Shown here piece by piece: positions 5,919 through 23,000 of a DNA stretch of 64,000 bases. The notes below the pieces were generated by a model. It had not been told where the DNA came from, ran no database searches, and saw only the letters and a program-made list of their open reading frames with translations. Every line of letters starts with the position of its first letter. Within the stretch, counting starts at the first letter, position 1. Made by a program: the position numbers and the translations under genes. Source of the DNA: Chryseobacterium indologenes (GTDB lineage Bacteria; Bacteroidota; Bacteroidia; Flavobacteriales; Weeksellaceae); contig NZ_CP074372.1 of the NCBI RefSeq assembly GCF_018362995.1, positions 868,001-932,000 of the forward strand. The letters are read 5' to 3'.

Positions 5919-5926
5919 GTGTAAGA

Positions 5927-7126: not shown

Positions 7127-7128
7127 AA

Positions 7129-8115
7129 TTATCCTCCGATTGTTGCCATAGACTGATGAATTTGTGACGCGCTAAGACTCTCTTTTTGAGCTTCCCAGCC
7201 GTCCTTTGGTTTATTTTGTATGCTGTTGATTATGATATCTTTAAGCTCTTCATCTGTTTTTCCAAGTCGGATCTCATCTTTGAGATTTACGCCTGTACCT
7301 TCGTAAAGGCAGGTTCTGAGAATACCGGAAGGTGTGATTCTTATTCTGTTGCAATCTCCGCAAAATGAACGCGTATACGCTGCAATGATTCCTATATTTC
7401 CTGTAAAACCGGGAATATTATAATTATATGCCGTTGAATTTTTAGGATCTTGAATCTTTTGTATTTCAGGGAAATATTCTTTTATATAGCGGTAAATCTG
7501 TGAGAAATTCCATTTCAGAGAAATATCTGTATCACCGCCATTGAAAGGCATTTCTTCAATAAAACGCACATCAACGGGAAGGTTTTTCGTAAGTTCCACC
7601 AAAGGAATAATATCTTCAATATTTTCATTTTCCATCACTACCGTATTGATTTTTACTTTGATATGATGCTGAAGGAGACCCTCCAACGTTTTCATGACCT
7701 TATCAAAGCTGTTTCTTCTGGTGATTTTGAAAAACCGGTCTTTATCAAGGGTGTCAAGGCTTAGATTAACAGATTTTATCCCGAATTTTTTAAGTTCCGG
7801 AATATAAGGTTCGGTAAGAAGACCATTGGTTGTTAAACTGAGATCAGTCAGACCGTCTAATTCTGATATTTTCCGGATAAGTTCAATGCTGTTTTTTCGT
7901 ACAAACGGTTCTCCTCCGGTGATTCTGATTTTATCTACTCCCATTTTTGTGAAAACGGAACAGATTCTGAGCATTTCATCATCAGTCATTAACTCATTTT
8001 GCTTAATCCAGGGAAGACCATTTTCCGGCATGCAGTATGTACATCGGAGGTTACATCGGTCTACAATTGCAAGCCTGAGATAATTAATATTCCTTCCAAA
8101 TTTATCTGTCAACAT
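7129..8115 (-). CDS. moaA: GTP 3',8-cyclase (radical SAM)
   Basis: 328 residues from ATG 8115. An in-frame TTG further upstream adds 19 residues unlike the family and lies beyond the predicted promoter. The radical-SAM cluster is CNLRCTYC near residues 20-27, followed by TGGEPFVRK. The second cluster is CGDCNRIRITPSGILRTC near 260-277, and the protein ends in the conserved double glycine (ATIGG). MoaA performs the first step of molybdenum cofactor synthesis. It is the first gene of the leftward moaA-moeA-moaC-mobA-moeB operon, with a -7 box TATATTTG about 25 bases upstream of the start. Confidence 0.94.
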   Translation of the reverse strand: MLTDKFGRNINYLRLAIVDRCNLRCTYCMPENGLPWIKQNELMTDDEMLRICSVFTKMGVDKIRITGGEPFVRKNSIELIRKISELDGLTDLSLTTNGLLTEPYIPELKKFGIKSVNLSLDTLDKDRFFKITRRNSFDKVMKTLEGLLQHHIKVKINTVVMENENIEDIIPLVELTKNLPVDVRFIEEMPFNGGDTDISLKWNFSQIYRYIKEYFPEIQKIQDPKNSTAYNYNIPGFTGNIGIIAAYTRSFCGDCNRIRITPSGILRTCLYEGTGVNLKDEIRLGKTDEELKDIIINSIQNKPKDGWEAQKESLSASQIHQSMATIGG

Positions 8116-8137
8116 TTTAAATACGATGAGTCTATTA

Positions 8138-8145
8138 CAAATATA
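8138..8145 (-). promoter_or_regulatory. Probable moaA promoter -7 box
   Basis: On the minus strand the octamer TATATTTG matches the Bacteroidota -7 consensus TAnnTTTG, 22 bases upstream of the moaA ATG. A TTG trinucleotide lies 24 bases further upstream, slightly wider than usual spacing. The very short leader leaves no room for a molybdenum-cofactor riboswitch. Confidence 0.55.
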
Positions 8146-8198
8146 CTGAATGTTTTTCGTGGTAGTGATCAATTTTATATTTATTGCTTAAATAATAA

Positions 8199-8223
8199 AA
8201 GATGAGCCTCTAAGGCTCATCTT
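8199..8223 (-). terminator. Rho-independent terminator of the haloperoxidase/bicupin operon
   Basis: An 11-bp perfect stem (AAGATGAGCCT / AGGCTCATCTT) with a 3-base loop. On the minus strand it is followed by TTTTATTATT. It lies 26 bases past the stop of the hydrolase gene and before the moaA promoter, separating the two leftward operons. Confidence 0.85.
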
Positions 8224-8248: not shown

Positions 8249-9070
8249 TTAAGATCTGATAAACTCCAGAATATCTTTGTTAATTGTTTCGTGCTCTGTA
8301 GTAGGCATTCCGTGAGGAAAACCTGGGTAGGTAATCAGTTTTCCATTCTTTAATAATTTTGCTGATTTTATAGCAGCGTTTTCAATCGGAACGATTTGAT
8401 CATCTTCTCCGTGCAGGACTAAAACGGGAAGGTCAACGGCTTTTAGATCTTCGGTTAAATCTGTTTCAGAAAAAGCTTTTATACCGTCATAATGTGCTAC
8501 AATACCACCCATCATTCCTTGTCTCCACCAATTTCTCTGAATACCTTCTTTGATATTCGCTCCTTCTCTGTTGTAACCGTAGAAAGGAAATGTCAAATCA
8601 ATATAAAACTGGTTTCTGTTGTTGAGGGTCTGGTCTCTGATATTGTCAAAAACTTCAATCGGAACCCCATCAGGATTGCTTTCACTTTTTACCATTACCG
8701 GTGGAATGGCGCTGATCAGAACTGCTTTTTTAGCTCTTCCGTTAGAATATTTATTCACATAGCGGATTACTTCACCACCACCTGTAGAGTGTCCGATGTG
8801 AACTACGTCTTTCAAATCAAGAAATTCTACCAGTTCGGCTGCATCAGAAGCATATTGTTCAATGGTATGATTGTAAATATTCTGGCTGGAACGTCCGTGT
8901 CCTCTTCTGTCATGGGCAATGACTCTGTATCCTTTCTGTAAGAAAAAGATCACCTGCGCATCCCAGTCATCAGATGATAAAGGCCATCCGTGGTGAAACA
9001 TCAGTACTGGTCCTTCTCCCTGATCTTTGTAAAAAATTTCTGTTCCGTCTTTTAATGTTAATGTGCTCAT
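8249..9070 (-). CDS. Alpha/beta hydrolase, non-heme haloperoxidase/arylesterase type
   Basis: 273 residues, the usual length for cofactor-free chloroperoxidases. Motifs are MFHHGWPLSSDDWD (oxyanion region), AHDRRGHGRSSQ, the nucleophile elbow GHSTGGGEV with Ser95, an acid near LHGEDDQIVP (Asp224) and His253 in FPHGMPTTE. There is no signal peptide, so it is cytoplasmic. Haloperoxidase activity in this group is a perhydrolase side reaction; esterase activity is equally likely. It is the last gene of a five-gene leftward operon that also encodes a peroxiredoxin and a DsbA-like protein. Confidence 0.85.
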   Translation of the reverse strand: MSTLTLKDGTEIFYKDQGEGPVLMFHHGWPLSSDDWDAQVIFFLQKGYRVIAHDRRGHGRSSQNIYNHTIEQYASDAAELVEFLDLKDVVHIGHSTGGGEVIRYVNKYSNGRAKKAVLISAIPPVMVKSESNPDGVPIEVFDNIRDQTLNNRNQFYIDLTFPFYGYNREGANIKEGIQRNWWRQGMMGGIVAHYDGIKAFSETDLTEDLKAVDLPVLVLHGEDDQIVPIENAAIKSAKLLKNGKLITYPGFPHGMPTTEHETINKDILEFIRS

Positions 9071-9123: not shown

Positions 9124-9642
9124 TTAGCTAATGGTATTTTCACGTACCAGCTGAAAAAGATCTTCAGCGCTGCCATTGAATTTATTTCCGTTAATGAAAA
9201 AAGAAGGAGTTCCGTTCACTCCGCTGATAACACCGCTTTCAAAGTCGGTATCTATTTTTTCCGCCAATGCCTGTTTCTGAATATCTGCTTTAAATTGGGA
9301 GATATTTAAATCCAGGTTTTCTGCCAGGTTTAATAGCAGGTTTTCATTCAGAAATTGCTGATTTTCATAAATAGCATCATGCATTTCCCAGAATTTTCCT
9401 TGTAGTCCGGCCGCTTCTGCTGCCAATGCTGCAGGTCTTGCATACTGATGCATTTCTGACAGAGGAAAATTTCTGAAAACAAACCTGATCTGATCTCCGA
9501 ATTCTTTCATTAATTCTTTAAGAACTGGATAAGCAGCTCCACAATAAGGACACTGATAATCCCCGTATTCTACAATGACTAAACCGGCATCCAAATTGCC
9601 CTGGGTATGGTCAGCATTGCTGACTGATGGTTTTAATGACAT
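9124..9642 (-). CDS. DsbA-family thioredoxin-fold protein, cytoplasmic
   Basis: 172 residues without a signal peptide. The N-terminal VEYGDYQCPYCGAAYP carries the CPYC active site (Cys31, Cys34), followed by an inserted helical region (AAEAAGLQGKFWEMHDAIYE) and the cis-proline loop NGTPSFFING. This is the Thioredoxin_4/DSBA layout, shared with cytoplasmic disulfide oxidoreductases of stress operons. It starts 2 bases after the peroxiredoxin stop, so the two are probably coupled, and it could act as a thiol partner in redox stress. That role is inferred. Confidence 0.85.
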   Translation of the reverse strand: MSLKPSVSNADHTQGNLDAGLVIVEYGDYQCPYCGAAYPVLKELMKEFGDQIRFVFRNFPLSEMHQYARPAALAAEAAGLQGKFWEMHDAIYENQQFLNENLLLNLAENLDLNISQFKADIQKQALAEKIDTDFESGVISGVNGTPSFFINGNKFNGSAEDLFQLVRENTIS

Positions 9643-9644
9643 AA

Positions 9645-10106
9645 TTATTTTGTGTTAAAGGTTTCTAATGCTTCTAAAATTCCGTCCGCACCTGGGTTGA
9701 TCGCCGTGGGTGACAGATAACTCCATTGGATAATGCCGTCTTTATTAATGACAAAAAGAGCTCTGTTGCATTCACCTTCCTCATCGTTATAAACGCCATA
9801 TTTCTTTGCAATTTCTCCTTTCGCTTCAAAATCTGCCAGCAAAGGAAAGTGCAGGTTTCTGGATTGTGAAAATGCAAGGTGGCACCATTTACTGTCTACA
9901 GAAATTCCGAAGATCTCGGCATCATATTTTTTGAAATATTTCAGCATTTCGTTATACAATGCCATCTGATCACTACAAACCGGGCTCCAGTCTGCGGGGT
10001 AAAAGGCAAGGATGACATTTCTGCCTCTGAATTCGGATAAGGTGATTTTCTGATCCGGAGTTGCAAATAATGTAAAATCAGGAGCAACTGTATTTTTTTG
10101 TAACAT
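9645..10106 (-). CDS. Peroxiredoxin (AhpC/TSA family)
   Basis: 153 residues. The fold order is visible: APDFTLFATPDQKITLSEFRGRN, then AFYPADWSPVCSDQ with the peroxidatic Cys44, then ISVDSKWCHLAFS (Cys75) and ALFVINKDGIIQWSY. The usual PxxxTxxC motif appears as DWSPVCSDQ, with Ser replacing the first Thr-containing part, typical of the alkyl hydroperoxide reductase E-like branch. It reduces peroxides through a cysteine sulfenic acid. It sits between DUF1275 (4 bases upstream) and the DsbA-like gene (2 bases downstream) in a stress-type operon. Confidence 0.87.
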   Translation of the reverse strand: MLQKNTVAPDFTLFATPDQKITLSEFRGRNVILAFYPADWSPVCSDQMALYNEMLKYFKKYDAEIFGISVDSKWCHLAFSQSRNLHFPLLADFEAKGEIAKKYGVYNDEEGECNRALFVINKDGIIQWSYLSPTAINPGADGILEALETFNTK

Positions 10107-10110
10107 TGGA

Positions 10111-10803
10111 TTAGTTTTTAATAGTTGAAATTGGTATTGTTAATGCGCAAATCAGCAGTAAAGCTGCCGGGAAAATCAGAGCCCAGTTTCCTGAAAATGA
10201 GAGTAGGAAAGGAGCTGCCGAAGCACCCGAGAGAAAACCCAGCCATAAGAATAATAGATGAAAGATATTCGCCTTGTATTCATTGCGTTGGTCTTTATTA
10301 TCATTCATTACAAACAGAGCTGCTGCTCTTGCGAGGCTGTTTAAAGTTCCTGTAACAAAATCGGTATTGATCTTTTGACTGCCGACTGATGTTACAATCG
10401 TATTCATAAGGCCCATCGAAAAACCGATCACTGCGATAGATACCACATTCGGAATATGTTCATAATAATCAGCTATACTGTAAAAGATCATTATTCCTGA
10501 AACAATGTAGAAGGTAATATTTTTAATCCTGCATCTTTTCCATAATGATAAACAGGTACCCGTATAGATTCCGGTCAGAAAAAATAAGATAACTGTAACA
10601 GAAGTAATGATTATACCGGAATTTTCATTGAAAAAAGCGGCTCCCAGCTGCGTGGTATTCCCACTCATAAAAGAAACATAGGTTTTCCATTGAATCAGCC
10701 CTGTGGCATCGGTATATCCTGCGATAAAAGCCAGGAATATTGCAAGTTTTTCCTGTAATCTGACAGAGTTGTCAGAAATAAGGGATTGTGTTTCCGGAAG
10801 CAA
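10111..10803 (-). CDS. YoaK/DUF1275-family membrane protein
   Basis: 230 residues, about six hydrophobic segments. FLAFIAGYTDATGLIQW, SFMSGNTTQLG and VTGTLNSLAR are the DUF1275 hallmarks (G-Y-x-D near the N-terminus, MSGN-T, and T-G-x-L). The family is an inner-membrane protein of unknown function. The start is a TTG at 10803, five bases after the bicupin stop; no ATG lies nearby in frame, and the next Met is inside the conserved region. The non-ATG start and tight spacing suggest translational coupling to the bicupin gene. Confidence 0.82.
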   Translation of the reverse strand: MLPETQSLISDNSVRLQEKLAIFLAFIAGYTDATGLIQWKTYVSFMSGNTTQLGAAFFNENSGIIITSVTVILFFLTGIYTGTCLSLWKRCRIKNITFYIVSGIMIFYSIADYYEHIPNVVSIAVIGFSMGLMNTIVTSVGSQKINTDFVTGTLNSLARAAALFVMNDNKDQRNEYKANIFHLLFLWLGFLSGASAAPFLLSFSGNWALIFPAALLLICALTIPISTIKN

Positions 10804-10808
10804 AGTAT

Positions 10809-11855
10809 TTATTTTCCAGGTTTGATGAATACTTTCTTTTCAGGAAATTTTTCTATTTCTCCTTCTTTCAGTCCGAAATTAGTTGTGACTACATCCTTCG
10901 GGTTTCCTGCAAGCCATTCGCTGATATCAATAGATTCATAGGTACCGTTATTAAACCCGATCAGTACTTTACAGACCGTGTCACCTGTATTTTTGATGTA
11001 ATGTCCTGCTCCCATAGGCACGTAACCCACATCACCGGCATTGAACTGCTCTGTAACAGAAACACCTTCTGCCAAAAACACCGACATTTCTGCCTGTCCT
11101 GAAATGAAATACTGCCACTCGTCCGCATTGGGATGCCAGTGCATTTCTCTTAATGCTCCGGGCTGAAGTTCCAGTACAGATCCGGCCATTGTTGTGCTGA
11201 TGGGAAACTCTTTACGGGTAACCAGTCTCTGAAGACCTCCGCCGGGAATTATTCTTGGCTGCTGAGAATGCAAAGGGTAACGATGAAGACTTGTCAGTTC
11301 AATATCTGACTCTTCAGGGCGGGCTGCTGCATTAGCGGATAATTCGTCTGGAACAATTCCTGCAGCGAAGTACACCTCTTTCTGAGGAAGTGCTGCTACT
11401 TCTTCTAGACTCAAGCCTAAATTTTGTGCAACAATTTCAGGGGGCATACTTGAAACAAAATCTGTAACGCTGAACGTATGGTCTTCCGAAAAATTGCCAT
11501 TATCAAAAATCAGGATAAAATGACATTCTTCTGTTCCTGTAGCCTGGATAGAATGGCCATAACCTTTTGGAAAATACCATACATCGCCGGGCTCAAAATT
11601 ATCTGTATAACTGTGTCCGTCTGGATGAATGATCGTTGTACGTACCGTTCCTGAAACCACATAAGCCCATTCTGCTGCGTTGGCATGCCAGTGAAGTTCT
11701 CTCATGCTTCCAGGCTGTAGTCTCATGGAAACTCCGGCAATACCTATAGACGCAGGAAATTCTTTTACAGAAGCTCCTCTTGTTGTACCGCCATCATTGG
11801 TACGCGGTTCTTTTTTTTCTAATTCGTATCTGAAACTTAATGATGTTGAGTTCAT
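10809..11855 (-). CDS. Bicupin, oxalate decarboxylase-like
   Basis: 348 residues, two germin-like cupin domains. The first has H55, H57, E62 and H101 (MRELHWHANAAEW, YGHSIQ). The second has H239, H241, E246 and H285 (LREMHWHPNADEW, AGHYIK). Both are full HxHxxxxE...H manganese sites. The loop SEDHT (123-127), with Glu124, aligns with the SENST lid loop whose Glu is the catalytic acid of Bacillus OxdC; this favours decarboxylase over oxidase chemistry. There is no signal peptide. It is the first gene of the bicupin-DUF1275-peroxiredoxin-DsbA-hydrolase operon, driven by a promoter with the direct-repeat operator described at 11905-11973. The natural substrate is not proven. Confidence 0.85.
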   Translation of the reverse strand: MNSTSLSFRYELEKKEPRTNDGGTTRGASVKEFPASIGIAGVSMRLQPGSMRELHWHANAAEWAYVVSGTVRTTIIHPDGHSYTDNFEPGDVWYFPKGYGHSIQATGTEECHFILIFDNGNFSEDHTFSVTDFVSSMPPEIVAQNLGLSLEEVAALPQKEVYFAAGIVPDELSANAAARPEESDIELTSLHRYPLHSQQPRIIPGGGLQRLVTRKEFPISTTMAGSVLELQPGALREMHWHPNADEWQYFISGQAEMSVFLAEGVSVTEQFNAGDVGYVPMGAGHYIKNTGDTVCKVLIGFNNGTYESIDISEWLAGNPKDVVTTNFGLKEGEIEKFPEKKVFIKPGK

Positions 11856-11904: not shown

Positions 11905-11973
11905 TGTAAAGCTACCCAGAAACCCTATTTTTTTTAGGTGTCATTCGGTGAAAAGGCAAAAAGTGTCGTTGAA
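11905..11973 (-). promoter_or_regulatory. Promoter with direct-repeat operator, site A (bicupin operon)
   Basis: In plus-strand orientation: TGTAAAGCTA at 11905-11914 (minus-strand -7-like box TAGCTTTA), then TTCGGTGAA at 11944-11952 and GTCGTTGAA at 11965-11973. The two 9-mers are direct repeats 21 bases apart with AAGGCAAAAAGT between them. Sites at 12589 and 18842 have the same elements at exactly the same distances (39 and 21). The bicupin start lies 50 bases downstream. Confidence 0.75.
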
Positions 11974-11996
11974 AAAATATGGAGATGCCACCAGTG

Positions 11997-12554
11997 TTAA
12001 AAAGGCTGGTTATATTTACCTGTTAATGCTTTATTTTCAATGCTTTTTGAAAAATTTGGAGTTTCTTCATGATTGTGAGCGTCAGAAGCAGCTTGTCTTG
12101 ATGCAGCAGCATCTTTAAGGTTTATGCCGTGTTCTTTAAGATATTCAAACATTTCAGGAGTAGCTGTTGCATGAATTTCATTGGTATAAAGGCAGGTGCT
12201 TTCATCAATCTTTGTCACTTTCAGTTCCCATAAAACCTGAACTTTTGTACGTCCGTTTTTGGTAATGGAATCAGAGATGGAAAGCATTCGGCAATAATCA
12301 GGACGGTGAACATCTGCAACATAATGCTGAACCATTAGTGCATCTCCAATGGTTTCGACATTTAAAGATACTGGCTTACCATCAAAAGTAGTTGAAATTG
12401 CGGCGCCGATATGCTGGGTTGAGCAACGTTGATATTCGGCATCAGGCAGATTAAGCAGCCAGTCTGCGATATTCACTTTTTCAATGGGTGCATTGATGAT
12501 AGCACTTACGCTTGAATGAGATAGTGCATTTTCGGGTGTTTGTAAGATTTCCAT
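11997..12554 (-). CDS. Hypothetical protein, possible SRPBCC/START-like fold
   Basis: 185 residues, no signal peptide or membrane segment. The opening SAIINAPIEKVNIADWLLNLPDAEYQRC and the middle RTKVQVLWELKVTKIDESTCLYTNEIHATAT have the strand rhythm of SRPBCC lipid/polyketide-binding proteins, but I do not recognise a specific family. The C-terminal 35 residues are polar and probably disordered. It stands alone, with its own copy of the direct-repeat operator (12589-12657) upstream, so it is probably co-regulated with the bicupin and Dps operons. Function unknown. Confidence 0.7.
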   Translation of the reverse strand: MEILQTPENALSHSSVSAIINAPIEKVNIADWLLNLPDAEYQRCSTQHIGAAISTTFDGKPVSLNVETIGDALMVQHYVADVHRPDYCRMLSISDSITKNGRTKVQVLWELKVTKIDESTCLYTNEIHATATPEMFEYLKEHGINLKDAAASRQAASDAHNHEETPNFSKSIENKALTGKYNQPF

Positions 12555-12588
12555 AGCTGTTGGTTTTGATTGTTTATTTTATTGATGA

Positions 12589-12657
12589 TGTAAAGCTACA
12601 AACCGACTGTTTTAATTTTTACTGCTGTTCGGTAAACAGGCGAAAAGTATCGTTGAA
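12589..12657 (-). promoter_or_regulatory. Promoter with direct-repeat operator, site B (SRPBCC-like gene)
   Basis: Plus-strand elements: TGTAAAGCTA at 12589-12598, TTCGGTAAA at 12628-12636 and ATCGTTGAA at 12649-12657. Spacing of 39 and 21 bases is identical to sites A and C. The 12 bases between repeats read CAGGCGAAAAGT. The downstream start codon is 35 bases from the -7-like box. Confidence 0.75.
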
Positions 12658-12702
12658 TAAGCCGGGGAAGTTCAAATAGTAACAGGATGGATGGTATTGA
12701 AA

Positions 12703-12732
12703 ATAAAAAAATCACTGTGGGTTACAGTGATT
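12703..12732 (-). terminator. Terminator after the kinase-OYE-monooxygenase operon
   Basis: A 9-bp stem (AATCACTGT / ACAGTGATT) with a 5-base loop. On the minus strand it is followed by a run of seven T. It lies 26 bases past the stop of the ABM gene and before operator site B. Confidence 0.8.
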
Positions 12733-12757
12733 GATAATAAGTAATTTTAAAAATTGG

Positions 12758-13309
12758 TTATTTATACAGCCATTTTTTGATCAGTCTGGTATAATTAGGC
12801 ATGACTACGAATACCATCAGAAAAACGATGATCCCTGAAATGATAAATCCGTCAGAATAATGATTGGCCGGGATTGAAATTATTCTTAAAAAGGGTAGGA
12901 CGACAACAGGAATGAGAATTGATAACGGGTAAATGGCAGACCAGGTAACCAGAAACTGTTTCCAGCGGACAGGAACTTTATTACCTTCATTTTCTGAATT
13001 AAAAAGGAAATCCAGTCCGGATTTTATCTGGTAATTGTCATTTTTTGTGAATAATGGATTGGCTTGTTCAATGAGTTTTTTCCGATCATCTGATTCCATC
13101 CAGTTTCTAAGGTTTTTAATGGTATCAAAACGGATAATAACAGTATATACAAAAGTCAGATCAGGAATAGGACGTACAATCTGCAGATCAATAAACCCTT
13201 CTGAATGCTTTGTAACCGGAACAATTTCGTTCAGCCATTTTTCGTATTCCTGCTGTTTTCCATCCTGAATATGATGAGTAATAACAACGGAGGCGCCGTG
13301 ATTTTCCAT
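12758..13309 (-). CDS. Antibiotic biosynthesis monooxygenase (ABM) domain protein with two membrane helices
   Basis: 183 residues. Residues 5-95 form an ABM-type ferredoxin-like domain (VVITHHIQDGKQQEYEKWL, SEGFIDLQIVRP, FDTIKNLRNWMESDDRKKL). Two hydrophobic segments follow at about 123-143 and 150-173, anchoring it to the inner membrane. This ABM plus two-helix layout is a recognised subgroup, but its substrate is unknown. It starts 24 bases after the Old Yellow Enzyme stop and is probably co-transcribed with it. Confidence 0.82.
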   Translation of the reverse strand: MENHGASVVITHHIQDGKQQEYEKWLNEIVPVTKHSEGFIDLQIVRPIPDLTFVYTVIIRFDTIKNLRNWMESDDRKKLIEQANPLFTKNDNYQIKSGLDFLFNSENEGNKVPVRWKQFLVTWSAIYPLSILIPVVVLPFLRIISIPANHYSDGFIISGIIVFLMVFVVMPNYTRLIKKWLYK

Positions 13310-13333
13310 AACTGATATTTTTTTCTGTTTGAT

Positions 13334-14392
13334 TTAATACGCTCTTTTATACTGCCATGGGATCTCTGTTTCAATACCTAATGCTTTCGCAGAATGAATT
13401 GCAAAATAAGGATCCCGCAAATGCGCTCTGGCAATAATAACCAGATCTGCATTTCCACCGGCAATAATATCATTGGCCTGTTCTGCTTCTGTAATCATTC
13501 CAACAGCTCCGGTCATCACACCCGTCTGTTCTTTAATGGATTTTGCAAAAGGTACCTGATATCCGGGAAACACCTTGTCCTTGCTTACATTGGTAAATCC
13601 GCCGCCGGATGCAGTAATGAAGTCGACACCATTTTCTTTGAGTATTTTTGAAAGTCTGATACTGTCTTCCAGGGCCCATGCTTCATCTGATTCTATATAA
13701 TCAACTGAAGAGATTCTAACGAACAAAGGCATTTCAGCAGGAATAACTTTCCTGATTTCCTGAACTGTCTCTATCAGGAACCGGATTCTGTTCTCAAAAC
13801 TTCCGCCATATTGATCCTGCCTTTTATTGATCACGGCGGAATAAAACTGGTGAAATAAGTAACCATGGGCTGCATGAAGTTCTATGGTGTCAAAACCTGC
13901 TTCAACAGAGCGGAGTGCTGCTTTTACGAATTTAGCGGTAAGTTCCCTAATTTCATCTATAGTGAGCTCTTCAGCAAAAACGCCATTAAATTCTCTTGCA
14001 GAAGATGATTTTACAGTCCAGCCTCCGTCTTCCGGTTTGAGAGGCTTCATTCTTTCATTGGGATGTTTCAGGCTTCCTTTTCCTCCTGCATGCCAAAGCT
14101 GAATGCCTATTTTTGCATCTTGCTCGTGAACGAAATTCACAATGTTTTTCCATGCACTTTTCTGTTCTTCATTCCAGATTCCTACATCAGATAATGTGGC
14201 CAGCCCTTCTTCTGAAACAGCAGTACATTCTGTAAGGATTAGTCCGGCTCCGCCTACAGCCCGGCTTCCCAGATGAACGAGATGCCAGTTGCCTGGAATT
14301 CCGTTTTCAGCACTGTATTGCTGCATAGGAGATACTGCAATCCTGTTTTTTAGCGTAAGACTGCGGATGTGTATAGGTGAAAATAAGTTCAT
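13334..14392 (-). CDS. NADH:flavin oxidoreductase, Old Yellow Enzyme (YqjM-like)
   Basis: 352 residues, one FMN-binding TIM barrel. Seen are LKNRIAVSPMQQYSAENG at the N-terminus, LILTECTAVSEEG, the substrate-binding ELHAAHGYLFHQFYS motif with the His-x-x-His pair, QYGGSFENRIRFL and IARAHLRDPYF near the end. In YqjM a cysteine follows SPM to tune the flavin; here it is Gln. These enzymes reduce activated C=C bonds with NAD(P)H, often as electrophile detoxification. It lies between the hybrid kinase (11 bases upstream) and the ABM gene, an unusual partnership. Confidence 0.9.
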   Translation of the reverse strand: MNLFSPIHIRSLTLKNRIAVSPMQQYSAENGIPGNWHLVHLGSRAVGGAGLILTECTAVSEEGLATLSDVGIWNEEQKSAWKNIVNFVHEQDAKIGIQLWHAGGKGSLKHPNERMKPLKPEDGGWTVKSSSAREFNGVFAEELTIDEIRELTAKFVKAALRSVEAGFDTIELHAAHGYLFHQFYSAVINKRQDQYGGSFENRIRFLIETVQEIRKVIPAEMPLFVRISSVDYIESDEAWALEDSIRLSKILKENGVDFITASGGGFTNVSKDKVFPGYQVPFAKSIKEQTGVMTGAVGMITEAEQANDIIAGGNADLVIIARAHLRDPYFAIHSAKALGIETEIPWQYKRAY

Positions 14393-14403
14393 TTTTTAGG
14401 TTT

Positions 14404-16611
14404 TTAAAGTGATTTTGAAAATGATTCGGCTTCGGAAACAGCCTGTAGCAGAACTTCCTGTACCTCTGTCAATATTTTTTGCAATTCAGGATCTTCTGCC
14501 GAAGCTGTTTCCAGAATATCCAGTTTTTCTTTTAATAAGGGGTGTAATCCCATTATGGAAATACTTGATTTCAGGTCATGAGACCACAGTTTCATGGCTG
14601 CAAAATCCTGGTTTTTATATGCTGTTGCCAGCTGTTGTAAATGATTGGGAATATTCTCAATAAACTGTTGGGTAACCAGTTTTTCAAAGCTTTTGTCGCC
14701 ACCGCTTACAGTGTGCATATAAGTTAATTTGATGTACTGATAATCAGATGGTGTATCTTCGGTTTTCTTTTCGGATCTGTTGTTTTCTTTCAATCCTAAT
14801 TTTGAAATCAGCGTAAACAGTTCTTCTTCCTTCACAGGCTTCGGAATATATTCATTCATACCACGACTCAGGCATTTTTCTCTTTCGCCTGGCAGAGCGT
14901 GGGCGGTCATTGCGATGATTGGAATATTCAGTTTCAGTTCCTCTCTTATTTTTTGTGTGGCAGCATATCCGTCCATTTGTGGCATCTGTATATCCATTAA
15001 TATCAGGTCACATTCATTACTGCTGAGATAACTGACTGCTTCAAGACCGTTTGACACCACATGAAAATCAATATTCCATTGAGAAAGCAGATGTTTCATC
15101 AGGCTCTGGTTGATCGTATTATCGTCAACCACCAGAACTTTCAAAGGAGTATTGGATGTATCTTTAAAATAATCTGGATCCGTTGCAGGAACTATTGTGA
15201 GCTGTTCTTCAGCAATTCCATAAGGGATATAAAAATGAAACGTAGTGCCTTTGCCCTGTTCGCTGGTCACTTCAATGTCTCCATTCTGCAATACAATTAA
15301 ACTTTTCACGATAGATAGTCCTAATCCGGTTCCTCCGTAATTTCGGGTTGTAGAATCTTCTCCCTGATTGAATCTTTCGAAAATTTCACTGAGCTTTTCT
15401 TTGTCAATTCCGATGCCGGTATCTGAAATTCTGAATCCGACTACAGCTTCTTTTTCAGTTTGCTGTTTATTATAAATTTCAATGGTGATATTTCCCTGCT
15501 GGGTAAATTTTATAGCATTTCCGATTAAGTTGACCAAAATCTGGGTTAATCTTGTTGCATCTCCCACCAAAGTATCAGGAATCGAGGAATCAATTGTACT
15601 GGATAGGGTAAGACCTTTTTCTTTTGCCCGTTCTGTAAAGAATGTCTCAACGGAATTGACCAGTCCATTAATACTGAAAATTCCCGGTGTGATGCGCATC
15701 ATTCCTGCTTCTATTTTTGATAAATCAAGGATGTCATTAATGATGGTCATCAGATTTTCCCCGGAACGCTGTATAGAAGAGACAAACTCTGCTGAAGTTT
15801 CATCCAGCGGACGTTTTTGAAGCAGATTGGTGAATCCCAGAATTCCACTTAAAGGAGTTCTGATTTCATGGCTCATATTGGCCAGGAAATTTTCTTTGGT
15901 CTGTGCGGCAATCAACGCCTTTTTTTCAGCAATATCAAGTTCGCTGATCAATAATCTCTGGCGGTTGAACTGACGAAGAATATGATATCCTACAACAGAT
16001 CCGCTTAATATGAGCAAAACCAGTAAAGAAATATCATAGAACCTTGCTTTCTGTCCCATTTTTCCACTTCTCTGGCTGAGTTCAACCATATTCAGTCTTC
16101 GGCTTTCATAGATCTTGGCGGTAATCCTGGTGATTTCATTAGAAATATTTCTCGCACGTGGATTGGCGATTGAGGTATTGTCATCCATATTTCCTAAAGA
16201 CCTGTAACGCTGCATTAATTTGTCTTTGGTGGTCTTCTTTTCCATGGCAAGAACACTTAACCTGTGGATCAGCTTTTCTTCTTCGGCATTTACATTGTCT
16301 CTGGAGAGAGAGTCCAGGAAATTTTCAATCTGATTGATTTTTTGATCAATCCCTTCCAGATGCGATATGTCATTCGTGGCGATTGAAGCTCTGATTCTGC
16401 TTTCCACTCCCAGAATATCACGGTCAATCTCTCGTAAATGGTTGCTTGAACGTAATTCATTCAGAAGGGTATTGTTATTTTGAATAAGAGCTTTGGTATT
16501 TCTTGCCGAATTGATCTGAACAATGATCAATAGGAGCGAACCCGCGATAAATGCCAGGATAATGAAATAACTGAACCGTTTACTATTCATTATTGAAGAT
16601 GTTTTTTTCAT
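14404..16611 (-). CDS. Hybrid sensor histidine kinase (sensor-HisKA-HATPase-REC-HPt)
   Basis: 735 residues. A transmembrane helix at 15-32 and another at 194-211 enclose a helical extracytoplasmic sensor of about 160 residues, CHASE3-like in length and charge. Then HisKA with His248 (NFLANMSHEIRTPLSG), HATPase_c (NLIGNAIKFT, DTGIGI, GGTGLGLSIV), a receiver with Asp540 (DLILMDIQMPQMDGY) and a C-terminal HPt domain with His678 (LWSHDLKSS). All phosphorelay residues are present. The LytTR regulator gene lies 114 bases upstream on the same strand and is the obvious output partner; OYE and ABM genes follow. Confidence 0.92.
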   Translation of the reverse strand: MKKTSSIMNSKRFSYFIILAFIAGSLLLIIVQINSARNTKALIQNNNTLLNELRSSNHLREIDRDILGVESRIRASIATNDISHLEGIDQKINQIENFLDSLSRDNVNAEEEKLIHRLSVLAMEKKTTKDKLMQRYRSLGNMDDNTSIANPRARNISNEITRITAKIYESRRLNMVELSQRSGKMGQKARFYDISLLVLLILSGSVVGYHILRQFNRQRLLISELDIAEKKALIAAQTKENFLANMSHEIRTPLSGILGFTNLLQKRPLDETSAEFVSSIQRSGENLMTIINDILDLSKIEAGMMRITPGIFSINGLVNSVETFFTERAKEKGLTLSSTIDSSIPDTLVGDATRLTQILVNLIGNAIKFTQQGNITIEIYNKQQTEKEAVVGFRISDTGIGIDKEKLSEIFERFNQGEDSTTRNYGGTGLGLSIVKSLIVLQNGDIEVTSEQGKGTTFHFYIPYGIAEEQLTIVPATDPDYFKDTSNTPLKVLVVDDNTINQSLMKHLLSQWNIDFHVVSNGLEAVSYLSSNECDLILMDIQMPQMDGYAATQKIREELKLNIPIIAMTAHALPGEREKCLSRGMNEYIPKPVKEEELFTLISKLGLKENNRSEKKTEDTPSDYQYIKLTYMHTVSGGDKSFEKLVTQQFIENIPNHLQQLATAYKNQDFAAMKLWSHDLKSSISIMGLHPLLKEKLDILETASAEDPELQKILTEVQEVLLQAVSEAESFSKSL

Positions 16612-16725
16612 AAATAACGATCTGATTTAAGGTGGAAGTATCGGTAAAAGAAGAAGATAACCCTAATTTTATTGAGGGATTAAGATCAAAAATAGAGTAG
16701 GAGAAAGGTCAACGATCTCCGGCTG

Positions 16726-17421
16726 CTAAAAAACGTTCATTCTTGTATTGAGTGCTTTACGATAGGCATCCGCTACGGGAATGAATTTACCGTTGATCAT
16801 GATCCCGCCATCCTGAAGGGTATCAATCTTACTTACAGAAACAATATAAGAGCGGTGAACTCTTATAAAATGATCTTTAGGAAGACGTTCTTCAGCGGTT
16901 TTCATTTTACCGTGAATGGCAAACATTTTTTCCTTTGTATAAAACTTCACATAATCACCCATGGCTTCTGCGTAAAAAATATCATCCAGCTTTAAGCGTC
17001 TGGTAACATTGGAATCTCTTACAAAAAGGAACTCATCTCTGGTTACTTCCACATTTTCTTTTCTGCTTTCGAGAATGGTTTGTGCCTTGCTTACCGCCTG
17101 CAGGAATCTTGCCGGCATAATAGGTTTTAAAAGATAATCAGCAATATTGAGCTCAAAAGCTTCAAGTGCATACTCTTTTTTGGAAGTCGTGAAAATAATA
17201 ATAGTATCTTTACCTGAAAGTGTTTTCGTGAGTTCAATTCCTGTCATTTCAGGCATTTCTATATCCAGAAAAATTAAATCGACCGGATTGGACTGCAGGT
17301 AATTGTAAGCGTTAATCGCATTGGGAAATTCATCAATAACCGTGAGATTAGGTATCTGTTTTGCCAGATGTGCTAAAGTTGTCCTTGCAATGTCGTTATC
17401 ATCCACGATTAAAGCTTTCAT
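16726..17421 (-). CDS. LytTR-family response regulator
   Basis: 231 residues. Receiver domain 1-118 has the acidic pair VDDND, phospho-acceptor Asp53 in DLIFLDIEMPEMTG, and the switch/Lys region FTTSKKEY and ADYLLKPI. The LytTR DNA-binding domain covers about 130-228 (LKLDDIFYAEAMGDYVKFYT, RVHRSYIVSVSKID). Regulators of this type bind pairs of 9-bp direct repeats spaced 12-13 bp. The operators at 11.9, 12.6 and 18.9 kb have that geometry, so it is a candidate for controlling them, though no such pair lies before its own gene. Probable partner of the downstream hybrid kinase. Confidence 0.92.
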   Translation of the reverse strand: MKALIVDDNDIARTTLAHLAKQIPNLTVIDEFPNAINAYNYLQSNPVDLIFLDIEMPEMTGIELTKTLSGKDTIIIFTTSKKEYALEAFELNIADYLLKPIMPARFLQAVSKAQTILESRKENVEVTRDEFLFVRDSNVTRRLKLDDIFYAEAMGDYVKFYTKEKMFAIHGKMKTAEERLPKDHFIRVHRSYIVSVSKIDTLQDGGIMINGKFIPVADAYRKALNTRMNVF

Positions 17422-17444
17422 AGGTATAATTCTTTCTGTTTACA

Positions 17445-17452
17445 CAAATATA
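17445..17452 (-). promoter_or_regulatory. Possible -7 box of the LytTR regulator gene
   Basis: TATATTTG on the minus strand, 23 bases before the ATG at 17421, matching TAnnTTTG. No convincing -33 TTG is placed 17-23 bases upstream. Confidence 0.45.
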
Positions 17453-17527
17453 CTACTTAATTATTTTCTGACATTCTTTCATTATGCTTGAATTTGTAAA
17501 CTAATATGATATTATGTGTATCAAATT

Positions 17528-18295
17528 TTATTTACTTCCATGAGCAGCTTCAATAATCAGTTCAGCAGCTTCTTTAGGATAGGTCATGAAGACACAATGG
17601 CTTGCACCTGCTATTTCTATTATTCTTTTACTATTGGCCCGTTTTGCATAGAAACGTTCCAAATCTGGATTTATAATTTTATCTGCTTTAGCAACCATGT
17701 ACCACACTGGTTTTGATTTCCAGGCCGGGTTATGAATAATGGCGTGAAAAACTGAGTCTTGTGTAGGCGTTTGTGAGACGGCCATAAAATCAGCTTTTTC
17801 TTTAGCTATGCCTCCGGCAAAATCCGTCGGAAAGTTGGATGGGTTTATATAATCAAATCCGTCATTTCCTTTAATCAGAGATTGATATTCTGACGGATAT
17901 TTTTTTCCGTTGTCAGCCTCAGATTCTCCTTCATCAGGAGCGTGGGCAGCAAGATATACTAGTCCGGCAACTTTTGGATTGTTTCCTGCGGTGGTTATAA
18001 TGGCTCCGCCGTAACTGTGACCCACCAATATGCAGGGACCATCCTGCTGGTCAATAATTCTGTTTACCTGCTTCACATCATCCTCATAAGAAAGTAAAGT
18101 CTGTTGAGTTACAGAAACATGATAGCCCTTTTTGACAAGTTCTTTATAGATTCCTTCCCAGCCGGAGCCGTCTACAAAAGCTCCATGAACCAAAATAATG
18201 TTTTTGATGGGTGCTTTTTGCCCATACATAAAATTTCCAAAGATTCCTGTAATGGTAAACAGGATGGCTATAAGTTGCTTCAATCCGGTTTTCAT
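17528..18295 (-). CDS. Exported alpha/beta hydrolase
   Basis: 255 residues. Residues 1-25 form a signal peptide (MKTGLKQLIAILFTITGIFG followed by a short polar region). The mature enzyme has ILVHGAFVDGSGWEGI (oxyanion region), the nucleophile elbow LVGHSYGGAIIT, a central lid region and a terminal ASHCVFMTYPKEAAE carrying the catalytic His. It resembles the pyrethroid-hydrolase/EstC-like salicylate-esterase group of small hydrolases. It follows dps by 30 bases and is probably transcribed from the same operator-bearing promoter (site C). Substrate unknown. Confidence 0.85.
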   Translation of the reverse strand: MKTGLKQLIAILFTITGIFGNFMYGQKAPIKNIILVHGAFVDGSGWEGIYKELVKKGYHVSVTQQTLLSYEDDVKQVNRIIDQQDGPCILVGHSYGGAIITTAGNNPKVAGLVYLAAHAPDEGESEADNGKKYPSEYQSLIKGNDGFDYINPSNFPTDFAGGIAKEKADFMAVSQTPTQDSVFHAIIHNPAWKSKPVWYMVAKADKIINPDLERFYAKRANSKRIIEIAGASHCVFMTYPKEAAELIIEAAHGSK

Positions 18296-18325
18296 AACTA
18301 ACTTTTTAAAATTAAATATCTTGTT

Positions 18326-18799
18326 TTATCTGAAATATGAACGGATCATCCATGCCATTTCTTCATGGGTTTCCATTAGACCTGTTATAAAGTCACTGGT
18401 TCCGTAATCTTTATATTTTTCTGCAAAAGGAGTGATGTTTCCACGGAGAAACTCGATGATGCTTTCGTGGTCGCTCAAAAGGTCTTTCATAAAGCCGGGT
18501 CCGTCATTGGTTCTTTCACTATCTTCAGTTAAATGAGTCAGTTCCAGAAAAATTTTCATGGTTGCCGGAGCATAATGTCCTATTTTTCGCATACGTTCTG
18601 CAACGCTGTCCATCATTTCATCCAGTTGTTTGTACTGTTCTTCAAAGAAAATGTGGTTAGCGTGGAAGTTGTCTCCGGTAACATTCCAGTGTGCATTTCT
18701 TGTTTTGATGTAAAGCAGTGTCTCATCAGCTAATAATTTTGCCAGTTGTTCTGCAACAGCTTCTGTGTTTTTTTCTGTAATTCCGATTTTTGTTTTCAT
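18326..18799 (-). CDS. dps: Dps-family DNA-protecting ferritin-like protein
   Basis: 157 residues, standard Dps length. The ferroxidase signature is present: TRNAHWNVTGDNFHANHIFFEEQYKQLDEMMD contains the conserved W-N-x-x-G, H-x-x-F-E-E and D-E-x-x-D-x-x-A-E pattern spread over residues 34-70. Dps forms dodecamers that oxidise iron with hydrogen peroxide and shield DNA in stress. Its promoter carries the direct-repeat operator (site C) shared with the bicupin operon, which fits oxidative-stress control. A signal-peptide hydrolase gene follows 30 bases later. Confidence 0.92.
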   Translation of the reverse strand: MKTKIGITEKNTEAVAEQLAKLLADETLLYIKTRNAHWNVTGDNFHANHIFFEEQYKQLDEMMDSVAERMRKIGHYAPATMKIFLELTHLTEDSERTNDGPGFMKDLLSDHESIIEFLRGNITPFAEKYKDYGTSDFITGLMETHEEMAWMIRSYFR

Positions 18800-18841
18800 A
18801 ATAATGGTATTTATAGTTGAGTATTATTGCTCTTTTGCTGA

Positions 18842-18910
18842 TGTAAAGTTCATTCATAATACCGTAAAACAGTCTTGATTTTCGACAAACAGGCAAAAAC
18901 AATCGTTGAA
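18842..18910 (-). promoter_or_regulatory. Promoter with direct-repeat operator, site C (dps operon)
   Basis: Plus-strand elements: TGTAAAGTT at 18842-18850, TTCGACAAA at 18881-18889 and ATCGTTGAA at 18902-18910, with CAGGCAAAAACA between the repeats. The 39- and 21-base spacings equal those of sites A and B. The dps ATG is 43 bases from the -7-like box. Confidence 0.75.
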
Positions 18911-19064
18911 AAGCTCCGTTTCTCAAATGATGATCAATAGCTGTAAATTCAGCTGCTTATAATGATGCTGTTATCAGGAGATATTAAATAATTTGAGTCA
19001 ATTTCCGACCAGCTTTTTTGTATTTTGTATAAATTTGCTTACTGACATAATTAAAAAATACAAA

Positions 19065-19808
19065 ATGGAATTTTCACCTTTTAAGAACGTTATCAAGCTT
19101 TGCCTTCAGGGGATGAATATGGAGGATAAGAACATGCCTGAGGAGGCGAAAAGGCTGTTTTTGCAAGCCTGGGAAGAAGCGTCAGACGATCATGAAAAAT
19201 TTCTGGCAGCTCATTATGTATCACGTCATCAAAAAACACCTGCCGATCGTTTGAAATGGCTTGAAACTTCTTTAAGTTTTGCTTTAAAAATAAATGATAA
19301 TACGGTTAAAAGTGCACTGCCTTCTCTTTATTTGAATATTTCCAAATGCTATGAGGAGTTAGGGGATATTGAAATGTCAAAAAAGAATGCCGAGCTGGCA
19401 TTGTTATTACAAAATCATCCTTCTGATAAAGGACCTTTTTACCATGGAACAAAAGCCGATTTACAGATAGGAGACCTGTTGACGGCTGGTGGAACGTCAA
19501 ATTACAAGTCAGAATTAAAAATGAATCATATTTATTTTACAGCTTTGATGAACGGGGCAGGGCTGGCTGCTGCTTTAGCAAAAGGCGATGGAACAGAGCG
19601 TGTATATATTGTGGAACCCACAGGTATTTTTGAAAATGATCCCAATGTAACAGATAAGAAATTTCCGGGAAACCCGACCCGTTCTTATCGTTCCGAAATA
19701 CCTTTAAAAATTGTCGGAGAGGCTAAAGAATGGACAAAACCTAACCCTGAAGATCTTCAGAAGTTTCGTGAGAAATTAGATGACAACAAGGGAGAGATCA
19801 TCAATTAG
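19065..19808 (+). CDS. arr: NAD+-rifampin ADP-ribosyltransferase (Arr) with N-terminal TPR-like domain
   Basis: 247 residues from ATG 19065; an in-frame TTG at 18993 adds an unlikely 24-residue hydrophobic stretch. Residues 1-118 are helical with TPR-like spacing (PEEAKRLFLQAWEEA, PSLYLNISKCYEELGDIEMSKKNAELAL). Residues 123-247 are Arr: FYHGTKADLQIGDLL with His127, SNYKSELKMNHIYFTA, ERVYIVEPTG, FENDPNVTDKKFPGNPTRSY. Arr inactivates rifamycins by ADP-ribosylating the ansa-chain hydroxyl. Stand-alone Arr is about 140 residues, so the front half is an added domain. It stands alone between the divergent dps operon and a two-component locus. Confidence 0.88.
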   Translation: MEFSPFKNVIKLCLQGMNMEDKNMPEEAKRLFLQAWEEASDDHEKFLAAHYVSRHQKTPADRLKWLETSLSFALKINDNTVKSALPSLYLNISKCYEELGDIEMSKKNAELALLLQNHPSDKGPFYHGTKADLQIGDLLTAGGTSNYKSELKMNHIYFTALMNGAGLAAALAKGDGTERVYIVEPTGIFENDPNVTDKKFPGNPTRSYRSEIPLKIVGEAKEWTKPNPEDLQKFREKLDDNKGEIIN

Positions 19809-19984: not shown

Positions 19985-20003
19985 CTTTACACTATTGGTA
20001 AAA

Positions 20004-23000
20004 ATGATTGGTTTGTGTAGAAATATTCTTACAGTTGGTTTTCTGTTTGCTTTTCTTTTGATTTACTCTCAGCAATATACTGTGCAACTGTTCAATACAG
20101 ATAACGGACTTCCTCAGAATAGTGTAAAAGATATTATAAAAGATAAATACGGCTTTATCTGGCTAACGACAGAAAATGGAATCGTAAGATATGACGGGCT
20201 TAATTTTTTTGTTCATAAAAATCTCCCATTGAATAGCCAGCGGTTTACTTATTTTTACGGTGATTCTAAAAAAGACAGCATTTTTACAGCAGGAGATTAC
20301 GGAAAAACAGTTTTAATACACCAGAAAGTTCCCAAAGTAATTAACAATATAAAAAAATATCCAACAATTATTGTTAAAGATAATATCAATTATCATTTGT
20401 GCATTTCAAACTACACGTACAGTCCGTCTCCGGGAGTCTGTTTCTTTATGGATTTCAAGAAAGGAAAGTATTTAATAACACAAAATTCTTTTGTTTATGA
20501 AGACTATCATTCTAAATCCCGGATCAAAGTAAATGTAAAACCGCTTTATAAAAATAATCCCAATGCCTTTACAATAGGAGATATTTTGTTTTATATTGAC
20601 AGAAATGCTAAAAAAGTAAGAAAAATAGAGGAAGGAAAAATTACAGATTCTTATGATCTGCCCATTGTAGCGGATCCCATGAGCAAAATATTCTGGAACA
20701 GAATAAATGGGCAGGGATTTGTATTGAACAATGATATTCTTTACAGGTGCATCTACAAGGATGGAACACTCAAGCTATTAAAACTGGCTCAGCTGGATCA
20801 TATAAGCGAAAGCAACCTGATGAGCGTTTATTATGATGAAAAATATAAAAAGCTTTATATTGGGAGCAGCACAGACGGACTCAAAATAGTGAGTTTAACA
20901 GATTTTATTTCTTCAAAAAGGGGTACTCCAAAATCATCAGTTGTTTTTTATGCGATCCAGCCTTATAATGATTCGTGTGTAATTAATCCGGCAGGAGAAA
21001 TCTACAACCGGAACGGACTGGTTAAAAGCAAAAACTTCGAAAAAAATATATCCTATTTTTTAAATTTTGACAAGCAGGGAAATATTGTAACCCGAAGAGA
21101 ACAAACTCTTTTTGTATACAATAAAAATTCTGATTTTACTGATTTTCAAAGTATTTCCACGGGAGAAGATACTGTAAAAGATTTTTTCTTTGCCGATGGA
21201 AAATACTATGTACTGGCAGTGAAACAAAAAAAAGGAAATACAGAGTTCACAGGTACACTAAGCATTTATAAAGATTTACCCTATAAGTCTCTAAAGAAAA
21301 AATATCTGTTTGCAAATGAGCCTACCAAGGTTATATTAACAGAAAATGGTGATATTTTGGTGGGTACAATAAAAGGATTGTACAAAATATCTGTTAAGCA
21401 TAATAAAATCTATGATTTAACCGGGAAAAATGAATTGTCAATTCGTGATATTGTGCATACTGCAGATGGAAATTTATGGGTAACCACTCTGGGAAGAGGC
21501 TTTTATCTTATAAAAAATAATCAGCTTATAAAAATGCCCGGTGATCCGGAAGGGAATCTTCTATCTCCACACACACTGCTGGAAGATCAGAATGGTTATT
21601 TCTGGATTCCAACAAACAATGGTTTGTACAAGATAAGAGAAAACATGCTGTTGAAATATGCGCAAAACCGGAATTTCAAACTGAACTATTACAGATATTC
21701 AAAAGAAGCAGGCTTTAACACCAACGAATTTAATGGCGGAAGTAATGTAAACGGCAACAAATTGAAAAATGGCGATTTTGTTTTACCCTCATTAAATGGA
21801 CTGGTATTTTTTAATCCTTTGAAAGTTAAAAGTTATTATCCCACAGAGATGTATATAGAAAGGGCTTTGGTTGATGACAAGGAAAAATTGTTTACAAATA
21901 CCTTAACGCTGAGCCAGGAAAACAGAAGGGTTGAGTTGTTTATTGATGTTCCTTACTACGCAAACCCTGATAATATTCTCATTGAAACAAAATTGGATGA
22001 TGATGGAACCGGTAAATGGATGTCAGTAGGGAAAGACCGGAAGTTTTTACTCAATAATCTTGGTCATGGTACGCATTTTCTTATCGTCAGGATGCTTGTT
22101 TCTGATAAGCATGAATATTTTTATAAAAAAATTAAAATTATCATTCCTGCTTTTTTTTATCAGACGTTATGGTTTAAAGTCTTTATCATTTTCCTGTTAC
22201 TTTTTTTACTTTATTTATCCGTAAGATGGCGGACGAGTGTTCATAAAAAGAAAAACCGCGAATTGGAAGCTATCATCATGTTAAGAACCAAAACGCTGTC
22301 AGAAACTGTAGAAAATCTGGAAATTACTCAAGCCAAGCTGGGAAGGGAAATTGAACAGCAGAAAAAGCTGATCGGGACCATTACTCATGATATTACCACA
22401 CCATTGAAATTTATTGCTTTAACCAGCAAAGAAGCGTTGGATTATGATGAAATGAATGCATACCGTACAGAAAGAATTCTTAATTCTATTTATAAATCAT
22501 CCAATCAGTTATACAATTTTACGAAAACACTGAAAGAATATGCTGATATATACAATGAATACAGAACTGATGAAACAGAATTGTATTCCTTCTATGATCT
22601 GGTGGAGGAAAAGAAAGTCCTTTTTGACGAGATTGCAGCCAATCATAATACGACAATTATTAATAATATAGACAAAGAGCTGATGATCCAGATCAGTAAA
22701 AATATCCTGGCTGTTATTATTCATAACCTGATGGATAATTCCGTAAAATATACAAGAGACGGGATTATTACCATTACCGGATCATATGAGGAGGAAGGTA
22801 TTATTCTGCAAATTACAGATACAGGAATAGGCATGGATGAGCACAAGATTGAATACTATACCAAGCTTCAGGAGAATATTGAAAATGAAAAGCTCTTATT
22901 ACAAAAATATGGCATGGGACTTCATCTGATTCTTCAGCTGCTCCAAATGTTAGAAAGTAAAATTATAATCAGAAGAAACGAAACAAAAGGGACTTCTTTC

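Follow-up and report, generated by a model that had tools for sequence, protein, structure and literature searches.

A direct-repeat operator at three promoters of Chryseobacterium indologenes, predicted to be bound by a neighboring LytTR response regulator

The operator-bearing gene cluster

The window analyzed here is a 64,000-nucleotide stretch of the genome of Chryseobacterium indologenes (contig NZ_CP074372.1, positions 868,001 to 932,000), in which three promoters share a direct-repeat operator. The operators head three leftward gene units of one cluster: an operon starting with a bicupin gene, a gene for a 185-residue protein, and a unit starting with dps that contains the genes of a LytTR response regulator and a hybrid histidine kinase. 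The three sites are very probably operators of this LytTR regulator, which may activate the three units after phosphorylation through a phosphorelay. The initial annotation of the window, made from its letters, placed the sites before these leftward units, which is correct, and envisaged a small regulon in which an activator, possibly the nearby LytTR protein, binds some 30 bases above a −7 box. The comparative evidence favors this view, with LytTR as the binder. The sites and principal genes are listed below, with scores from the operator matrix described in the section on the genus.

11906..11914, minus strand: −7 box TAGCTTTAC of the bicupin promoter, in fixed register, with a predicted start at 11902
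11944..11973, minus strand: bicupin operon operator, with distal 9-mer 11965-11973, proximal 9-mer 11944-11952, and a 12-bp spacer with a GCC core; matrix score 47
12590..12598, minus strand: −7 box TAGCTTTAC of the 185-residue protein gene, in fixed register, with a predicted start at 12586
12628..12657, minus strand: operator of the 185-residue (SRPBCC-like) protein gene, from sequence; matrix score 41
18843..18851, minus strand: −7 box GAACTTTAC of the dps promoter, in fixed register, with a predicted start at 18839
18881..18910, minus strand: operator heading the unit of dps, lytTR, and the hybrid kinase gene, from sequence; matrix score 39
10809..11855, minus strand: bicupin of the oxalate decarboxylase family (TIGR03404, 359.6 bits against a cut-off of 254.2)
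11997..12554, minus strand: 185-residue target gene, family not established (no Pfam family; fold model with a predicted local distance difference test score, pLDDT, of 41)
14404..16611, minus strand: hybrid histidine kinase, proposed partner of LytTR (Pfam HisKA, HATPase, receiver, and Hpt domains; CHASE3 at E 0.024 only)
16726..17421, minus strand: LytTR response regulator, proposed operator binder (PF00072 E 5.7e-22, PF04397 E 7.8e-20; co-occurrence)
18326..18799, minus strand: dps, ferritin-like DNA-protection protein (PF00210 E 4.5e-24; Dps model E 4.1e-20, under its cut-off)

Sequence and geometry of the operators

On the plus strand of the window, TGTAAAG starts at positions 11905, 12589, and 18842, and TTCGnnnAA follows 39 bases later, at 11944, 12628, and 18881. 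The element nTCGTTGAA begins 21 bases beyond TTCGnnnAA at each of the three sites, with AGGC(A/G)AAAA in between. Coordinates, spacing, and core agree with the initial annotation. The repeat that it gave as TTCGnnnAA is present on the plus strand, but is this genome's version, on the other strand, of a genus-wide proximal repeat, which in the gene direction is mostly TTCA(C/T)CGAA across the genus matrix.

Read in the direction of the genes, the consensus of the three sites is composed of a 9-mer direct repeat, TTCANCGAN-N12-TTCANCGAA, followed by 29 bases, the −7 box, and the predicted start. The bicupin promoter reads TTCAACGAC-ACTTTTTGCCTT-TTCACCGAA, 29 bases, TAGCTTTAC; that of the 185-residue protein gene TTCAACGAT-ACTTTTCGCCTG-TTTACCGAA, 29 bases, TAGCTTTAC; and that of dps TTCAACGAT-TGTTTTTGCCTG-TTTGTCGAA, 29 bases, GAACTTTAC. 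Each site is placed immediately above the position where a −33 region would be expected and stands at the head of one gene unit.

According to extracts of the published work, from which all papers are cited here, LytTR sites consist of paired repeats of 9-11 nt, in direct or inverse orientation, placed 11-13 nt apart and lacking a common consensus (PMC4847170). In autoregulated LytTR operons, a 12-bp distance between the 9-mers prevails, and the repeats tend to lie 10 bp above the −35 element (PMC6193735); the promoter-proximal repeats of AgrA are located near −60 (PMC4227749). The flavobacterial −7 box is TAnnTTTG (PMC9723704). The window sites conform to the published LytTR geometry, with 9-mers, a 12-nt spacer, and a position just above the −35/−33 region as counted from the predicted start.

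The pattern TTCGNNNAA-N13-TCGTTGAA has exactly three perfect matches in the window; with up to three mismatches it occurs 23 times, compared with 11.4 times on average and at most 22 times over 100 shuffles. The 30-bp pattern with the core, at up to three mismatches, occurs only at the three sites in the 5,008,467-bp genome, and its reversed control occurs once. A looser consensus adds one three-mismatch match in the whole genome, far from the cluster, and the looser control has none. The genome-wide search suggested by the initial annotation thus finds the three sites and no spread of the pattern at chance frequency.

Conservation of the operator within the genus

The operator matrix was built from 53 regions, comprising 12-19 kb around the LytTR orthologue in 52 other same-genus genomes and part of the window. 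The matrix has 156 matches in the 53 regions, 153 of them on the lytTR strand. The three opposite-strand matches are all located in genome G145, where the target genes and sites are inverted together. The first gene downstream is dps at 53 sites, the bicupin gene at 48, the 185-residue protein gene at 45 (a count that includes the array of genome G170 twice), the hydrolase gene at three, and the peroxiredoxin gene at one, with six unassigned. Every one of the 53 same-genus LytTR genomes has a site before dps.

Sites scoring at least 30 (n=152) share a strict register: in all 152, the operator ends 29 bases before a −7 box that contains TTTA, and A occupies the predicted start position in 151. 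No −33 element is conserved in the genus matrix. Pairs of sites from the same genome (n=148) show 77% identity over the operator and 83% over the −7 box, but 34% over the spacer and 32% over the upstream sequence. Since paired sites are alike in the operator and −7 box, and not in the spacer and upstream sequence, they are not simply recent duplicates. The half-site profiles of the 152 sites match most closely when shifted by 21 bp (0.697); the next-best shift between 10 and 29 gives 0.396, and the best inverted arrangement 0.493.

The invariant distance to the −7 box in the genus set could also reflect an extended promoter that is read by an alternative sigma factor and needs no activator. 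We regard this explanation as extremely improbable. As −7 box, the promoters have a variant of the housekeeping box TAnnTTTG described in a flavobacterium (PMC9723704); the direct repeat ends 29 bases before this box, beyond the region that sigma factors usually contact; and arrays of three repeats at 21-bp steps occur.

These arrays form a variant of the operator. Overlapping site pairs in genomes G170 and G187 amount to three repeats at 21-bp steps, and further triple half-site arrays with the same step are located at L126:7272-7322, L127:4184-4234, and L099:12426-12476. The arrays precede the 185-residue protein gene or a hydrolase gene; their proximal repeat is degenerate, and the −7 box is in its usual place.

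The genes for LytTR, the kinase, and dps are the only window genes present in 53 of 53 fetched regions, and the hybrid kinase adjoins LytTR in all 53; the counts cover the fetched regions, so that a gene located elsewhere scores as absent. An unrecognized regulator that travels with the cluster could bind the sites instead of LytTR, for example the 185-residue protein or the LuxR-type regulator encoded at 23027-23641. The cluster does travel as a unit, the 185-residue protein has no assigned family, and the extra genes in the clusters of other genomes are annotated only in part. Nevertheless, such a regulator is very unlikely, as the LuxR gene is found near LytTR in one of 53 regions, which is the window's own, and the 185-residue protein gene in 44, compared with all 53 for LytTR, kinase, and dps. 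Moreover, in the farthest site-bearing loci only the LytTR and kinase genes persist of the window genes.

Co-occurrence of the operator and the LytTR gene

A LytTR orthologue (E <=1e-75, 80-100% identity) is encoded in 53 of 173 same-genus genomes. We searched 320 genomes of the family with a composite pattern of operator and −7 box, which has 20 fixed bases and was allowed up to two mismatches. The composite matches 69 genomes: all 53 LytTR genomes, three of the 120 same-genus genomes without LytTR (G159, G173, and G183), 11 of genus g30, G197, and G297. Related species with the regulator thus keep the repeats, a comparison that the initial annotation had proposed. The reversed composite matched 12 times in the 320 genomes, so single two-mismatch matches are at chance level. 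All 23 genomes of genus g30 were searched; 11 encode a LytTR orthologue (87-92% identical), and the same 11 have the composite. Among 16 of the 124 other family genomes outside the genus, which were searched for LytTR, only G197 has a fairly close relative (53%).

The absence of a composite match from 117 of the 120 same-genus genomes without the regulator makes a shared core regulator with older targets unlikely. The same absence is hard to reconcile with a core AraC-type activator encoded elsewhere, two helix-turn-helix units of which would contact the direct repeats 21 bp apart. The 21-bp period would suit AraC proteins as well. Still, we consider AraC control unlikely: the Pfam scan, which covered the cluster proteins and not genes elsewhere in the genome, found no AraC domain, and the sites track a LytTR subfamily across orders.

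Two other patterns were rejected as measures of occurrence. The strict consensus, with up to two mismatches, underestimates occurrence: of 59 genomes it was found in 13, which include the window's own and all belong to its genus. An earlier loose pattern was found in 53 genomes, 48 of which are shared with the set of 53 LytTR genomes (Fisher p 4e-31, a value that overstates independence, given that the genomes come from related species and the cluster passes on as one block). The loose pattern misses five LytTR genomes, all of which have sites by both matrix and composite, and its five site-only genomes equal in number the matches of the reversed control (5), although one of the five, G173, looks genuine.

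Among the matches listed, two good sites are located away from the cluster in LytTR genomes. That of G090 lies about 510 kb off the cluster, before the gene of a protein with an M17-peptidase N-terminal domain, and that of G185 is on another contig, before the 185-residue protein gene. Off-cluster two-mismatch matches in G026, G059, and G023 are at control level.

Relatives of the target genes in genomes without LytTR mostly lack the operator. The dps search (E <=1e-25) found no orthologue in 37 of 41 such genomes (38 same-genus, three g30). The remaining four encode a dps relative that is 49-60% identical, and the three of these regions examined contain no site at score 14. Relatives of the bicupin-operon hydrolase (E <=1e-110) are encoded in 157 of the 173 genomes, including 104 without LytTR, many of them only 73-76% identical. 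Two of these 104 genomes have a composite match anywhere, G173 before the hydrolase gene and G183 on another contig. Bicupins of 62-66% identity occur in 15 genomes without LytTR, with a sole composite match, again that of G173 at the hydrolase gene. This site (L087:7924-7953) has an intact −7 box and proximal repeat and precedes a hydrolase gene whose product is 84% identical. Its distal repeat is damaged, an otherwise invariant C is lost, and it is the only match in the genome. The promoter looks like a relic.

Operators beside distant LytTR genes

We scanned named genomes for sites around the best 80 of 550 candidate LytTR loci, using a matrix threshold of 6. Within this set, a site scoring at least 6 is present at 20 of the 26 loci whose LytTR is at least 45% identical (17 of 23 when L124, L125, and L130, which appear to repeat matrix-building genomes, are excluded), compared with none of the 54 loci (949 kb) with more distant LytTRs; the L146 match is doubtful, as it has no −7 box in register. 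In the 26 loci (464 kb), the reversed matrix has one match and six column-shuffled matrices have none. L126 and L127 do not differ at the sites; L141 appears to correspond to the G197 contig and L147 to a contig of G718.

The genera with matches include Sphingobacterium, Flavobacterium, Pedobacter, Mucilaginibacter, Dyadobacter, Chitinophaga, and Paraflavitalea; Chryseobacterium, Mucilaginibacter, Dyadobacter, and Chitinophaga each represent a different order. At the more distant loci the cargo genes differ, most having no counterpart in the window, and the sites stay beside the LytTR and kinase genes. Sites are found within about 35 bases past lytTR in L132, L133, L138, L141, L143, L144, and L196. 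Others follow the kinase gene or precede genes for an outer-membrane efflux protein, an Abhydrolase_3 enzyme, a DUF1275 protein, or small secreted proteins. A class-level search added two loci: G514, whose LytTR is 81% identical and where sites precede both dps and the hydrolase gene, and G568, with a LytTR of 50% identity and a weak site at most 30 bases after lytTR.

We consider it fairly likely that LytTR, the hybrid kinase, and the operator form a portable cassette that has spread over at least four Bacteroidota orders (Flavobacteriales, Sphingobacteriales, Cytophagales, and Chitinophagales). The DNA code would be kept while the controlled genes are exchanged, sometimes with three-repeat arrays at 21-bp steps.

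Weak sites at L134:208, L137:9895, and L196:13380 precede genes of similar-looking secreted proteins of about 180-200 residues. The protein from L137, the only one of these scanned, has no Pfam family. It is possible that these proteins are a shared target.

LytTR as the probable binder and proposed mechanism

The LytTR protein encoded at 16726-17421 is the probable binder, to judge from its co-occurrence with the sites in the genus and from the restriction of distant sites to loci with a closer LytTR. The residues D7, D8, D53, and K99 are invariant across eight aligned LytTR homologs. The best NCBIfam model for the protein is BtsR, at 120 bits, below the cut-off of 246. LytTR regulators abound in its own genome, which contains seven matches to the protein at E <=1e-30, itself included. 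A search of solved structures retrieved receiver domains only, among the matches listed (60 of 94).

The HisKA, HATPase, receiver, and Hpt domains of the kinase, together with the preserved Asp53 of the LytTR receiver, make a phosphorelay the natural reading. Phosphate would move from the hybrid kinase, by way of the receiver and Hpt domains of the kinase itself, to Asp53 of LytTR. Binding of the repeats by two LytTR molecules may then bring RNA polymerase to promoters that lack a good −33 element. Activation is more plausible than repression, given that the operator lies above the −33 region and that no −33 element is conserved. The activated genes would be dps, the regulator and kinase (positive feedback), the 185-residue protein gene, and the bicupin-DUF1275-peroxiredoxin-DsbA-hydrolase operon. 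Because lytTR and the hybrid kinase gene belong to the dps unit, which is headed by an operator, the system is probably autoregulated. Gene content suggests a theme of oxidative or electrophile stress.

Several observations weigh against this assignment. The chief caution is that the cluster is inherited as a unit, and co-occurrence within the genus is partly linkage. Three results reach further than linkage: the lack of a composite match in 117 of the 120 same-genus genomes without the regulator, the sites away from the cluster, and the sites at loci of distant LytTR homologs. The distant loci were taken around LytTR genes and cannot reveal sites elsewhere. Six of the 26 loci with at least 45% identity (L135, L140, L142, L145, L147, and L148) have no site at the matrix threshold; by a half-site-plus-box score, only L145 (11.6) among them exceeds the best control locus with a distant LytTR (6.8). 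Seven of nine further distant LytTR loci from the class search have no site scoring at least 8. L138, L144, and L196, where the sites follow lytTR, and L146 have a −7 box in another register or none at all. G173 keeps a partly decayed site without the regulator. The repeat is not a full fit to the classical LytTR half-site consensus, which is about [TA][AC][CA]GTTN[AG][TG]; on the antisense strand, ATCGTTGAA agrees with six of its eight fixed positions, as compared by eye. A GCC conserved in the spacer is, to our knowledge, no feature of LytTR sites.

Comparison with known LytTR systems

AgrA, YpdB, and BtsR-type regulators likewise combine a receiver and a LytTR domain and, in the cited extracts, bind repeats of about 9 nt located 12 nt apart upstream of the promoter (PMC4847170, PMC4227749). 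The YpdB sequence GGCATTTCAT resembles the GCCTGTTCAC stretch of the present consensus, by eye only. In contrast to these systems, the Chryseobacterium regulator has a hybrid kinase partner with receiver and Hpt domains, the spacer contains a strongly conserved GCC and a T-rich core, the −7 box is of the Bacteroidota type, and the cargo consists of dps and redox enzymes.

The LytTR Regulatory Systems HdrRM and BrsRM of Streptococcus mutans also have 9-mer direct repeats 12 bp apart above the promoter of their own operon, and positive autoregulation is described for them (PMC6193735). However, they pair the LytTR regulator with a membrane inhibitor, as opposed to the receiver domain and phosphorelay-type kinase found here. 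We do not place the present system in that class, since its regulator has a receiver domain and its neighbor is a hybrid kinase. Among the papers listed by our literature searches, none, judged by title and the beginning of the abstract, defines a LytTR DNA site in Bacteroidota.

The site, the −7 box geometry, and the target list are precise enough for direct testing, and the operator code may be used for reading regulons in other genera. The assignment links dps, peroxiredoxin, bicupin, and old yellow enzyme under one predicted phosphorelay.

Gene units of the cluster and neighboring genes

The remaining features of the two longer units are as follows.

8199-8223: terminator-like hairpin past the bicupin-operon hydrolase gene, a consensus match
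8249..9070, minus strand: alpha/beta hydrolase, final gene of the bicupin operon (PF00561)
9124..9642, minus strand: DsbA-like thioredoxin-fold protein (PF13462, PF01323)
9645..10106, minus strand: peroxiredoxin, AhpC/TSA (PF00578)
10111..10803, minus strand: DUF1275 protein (PF06912)
12710..12732, minus strand: terminator-like hairpin past the ABM gene, a consensus match
12758..13309, minus strand: ABM-domain protein, final gene of the dps-lytTR unit (PF03992 E 3.4e-6)
13334..14392, minus strand: old yellow enzyme, a flavin mononucleotide oxidoreductase (PF00724), in 29 of 53 fetched regions
17528..18295, minus strand: alpha/beta hydrolase between dps and lytTR (Pfam), near LytTR in just 3 of 53 genomes

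The genes for dps, hydrolase, LytTR, hybrid kinase, old yellow enzyme, and the ABM protein all point the same way and are separated by 11-114 bases. The sole terminator-like hairpin on their strand between dps and the next unit is that after the ABM gene; since none precedes it within the dps unit, the regulator is probably expressed from a promoter that carries its own operator. The number of terminator-like hairpins is not above that in shuffles (9 compared with 9.1), and the bicupin operon has three short ones inside genes, besides that past its last gene. The bicupin-operon hydrolase has a 95% identical second copy, encoded about 104 kb away (G000:C1:771236-772054), with no operator match there. 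For the 185-residue protein, the Pfam scan gave no family and hence no support for the SRPBCC-like label of the initial annotation; the predicted fold is too poor for comparison and neither supports nor excludes SRPBCC.

A gene divergent from dps (18993-19808) encodes an Arr-type rifampin ADP-ribosyltransferase domain (PF12120 E 2.2e-46), with a weak TPR match ahead of it. The genes at 19995-23641 encode a large sensor kinase and the LuxR-type response regulator, found near LytTR in three and one of the 53 fetched regions, respectively; the pair is outside the module. Downstream of the bicupin operon, at 4856-8172, are genes that appear, from their sequence, to serve molybdenum-cofactor synthesis.

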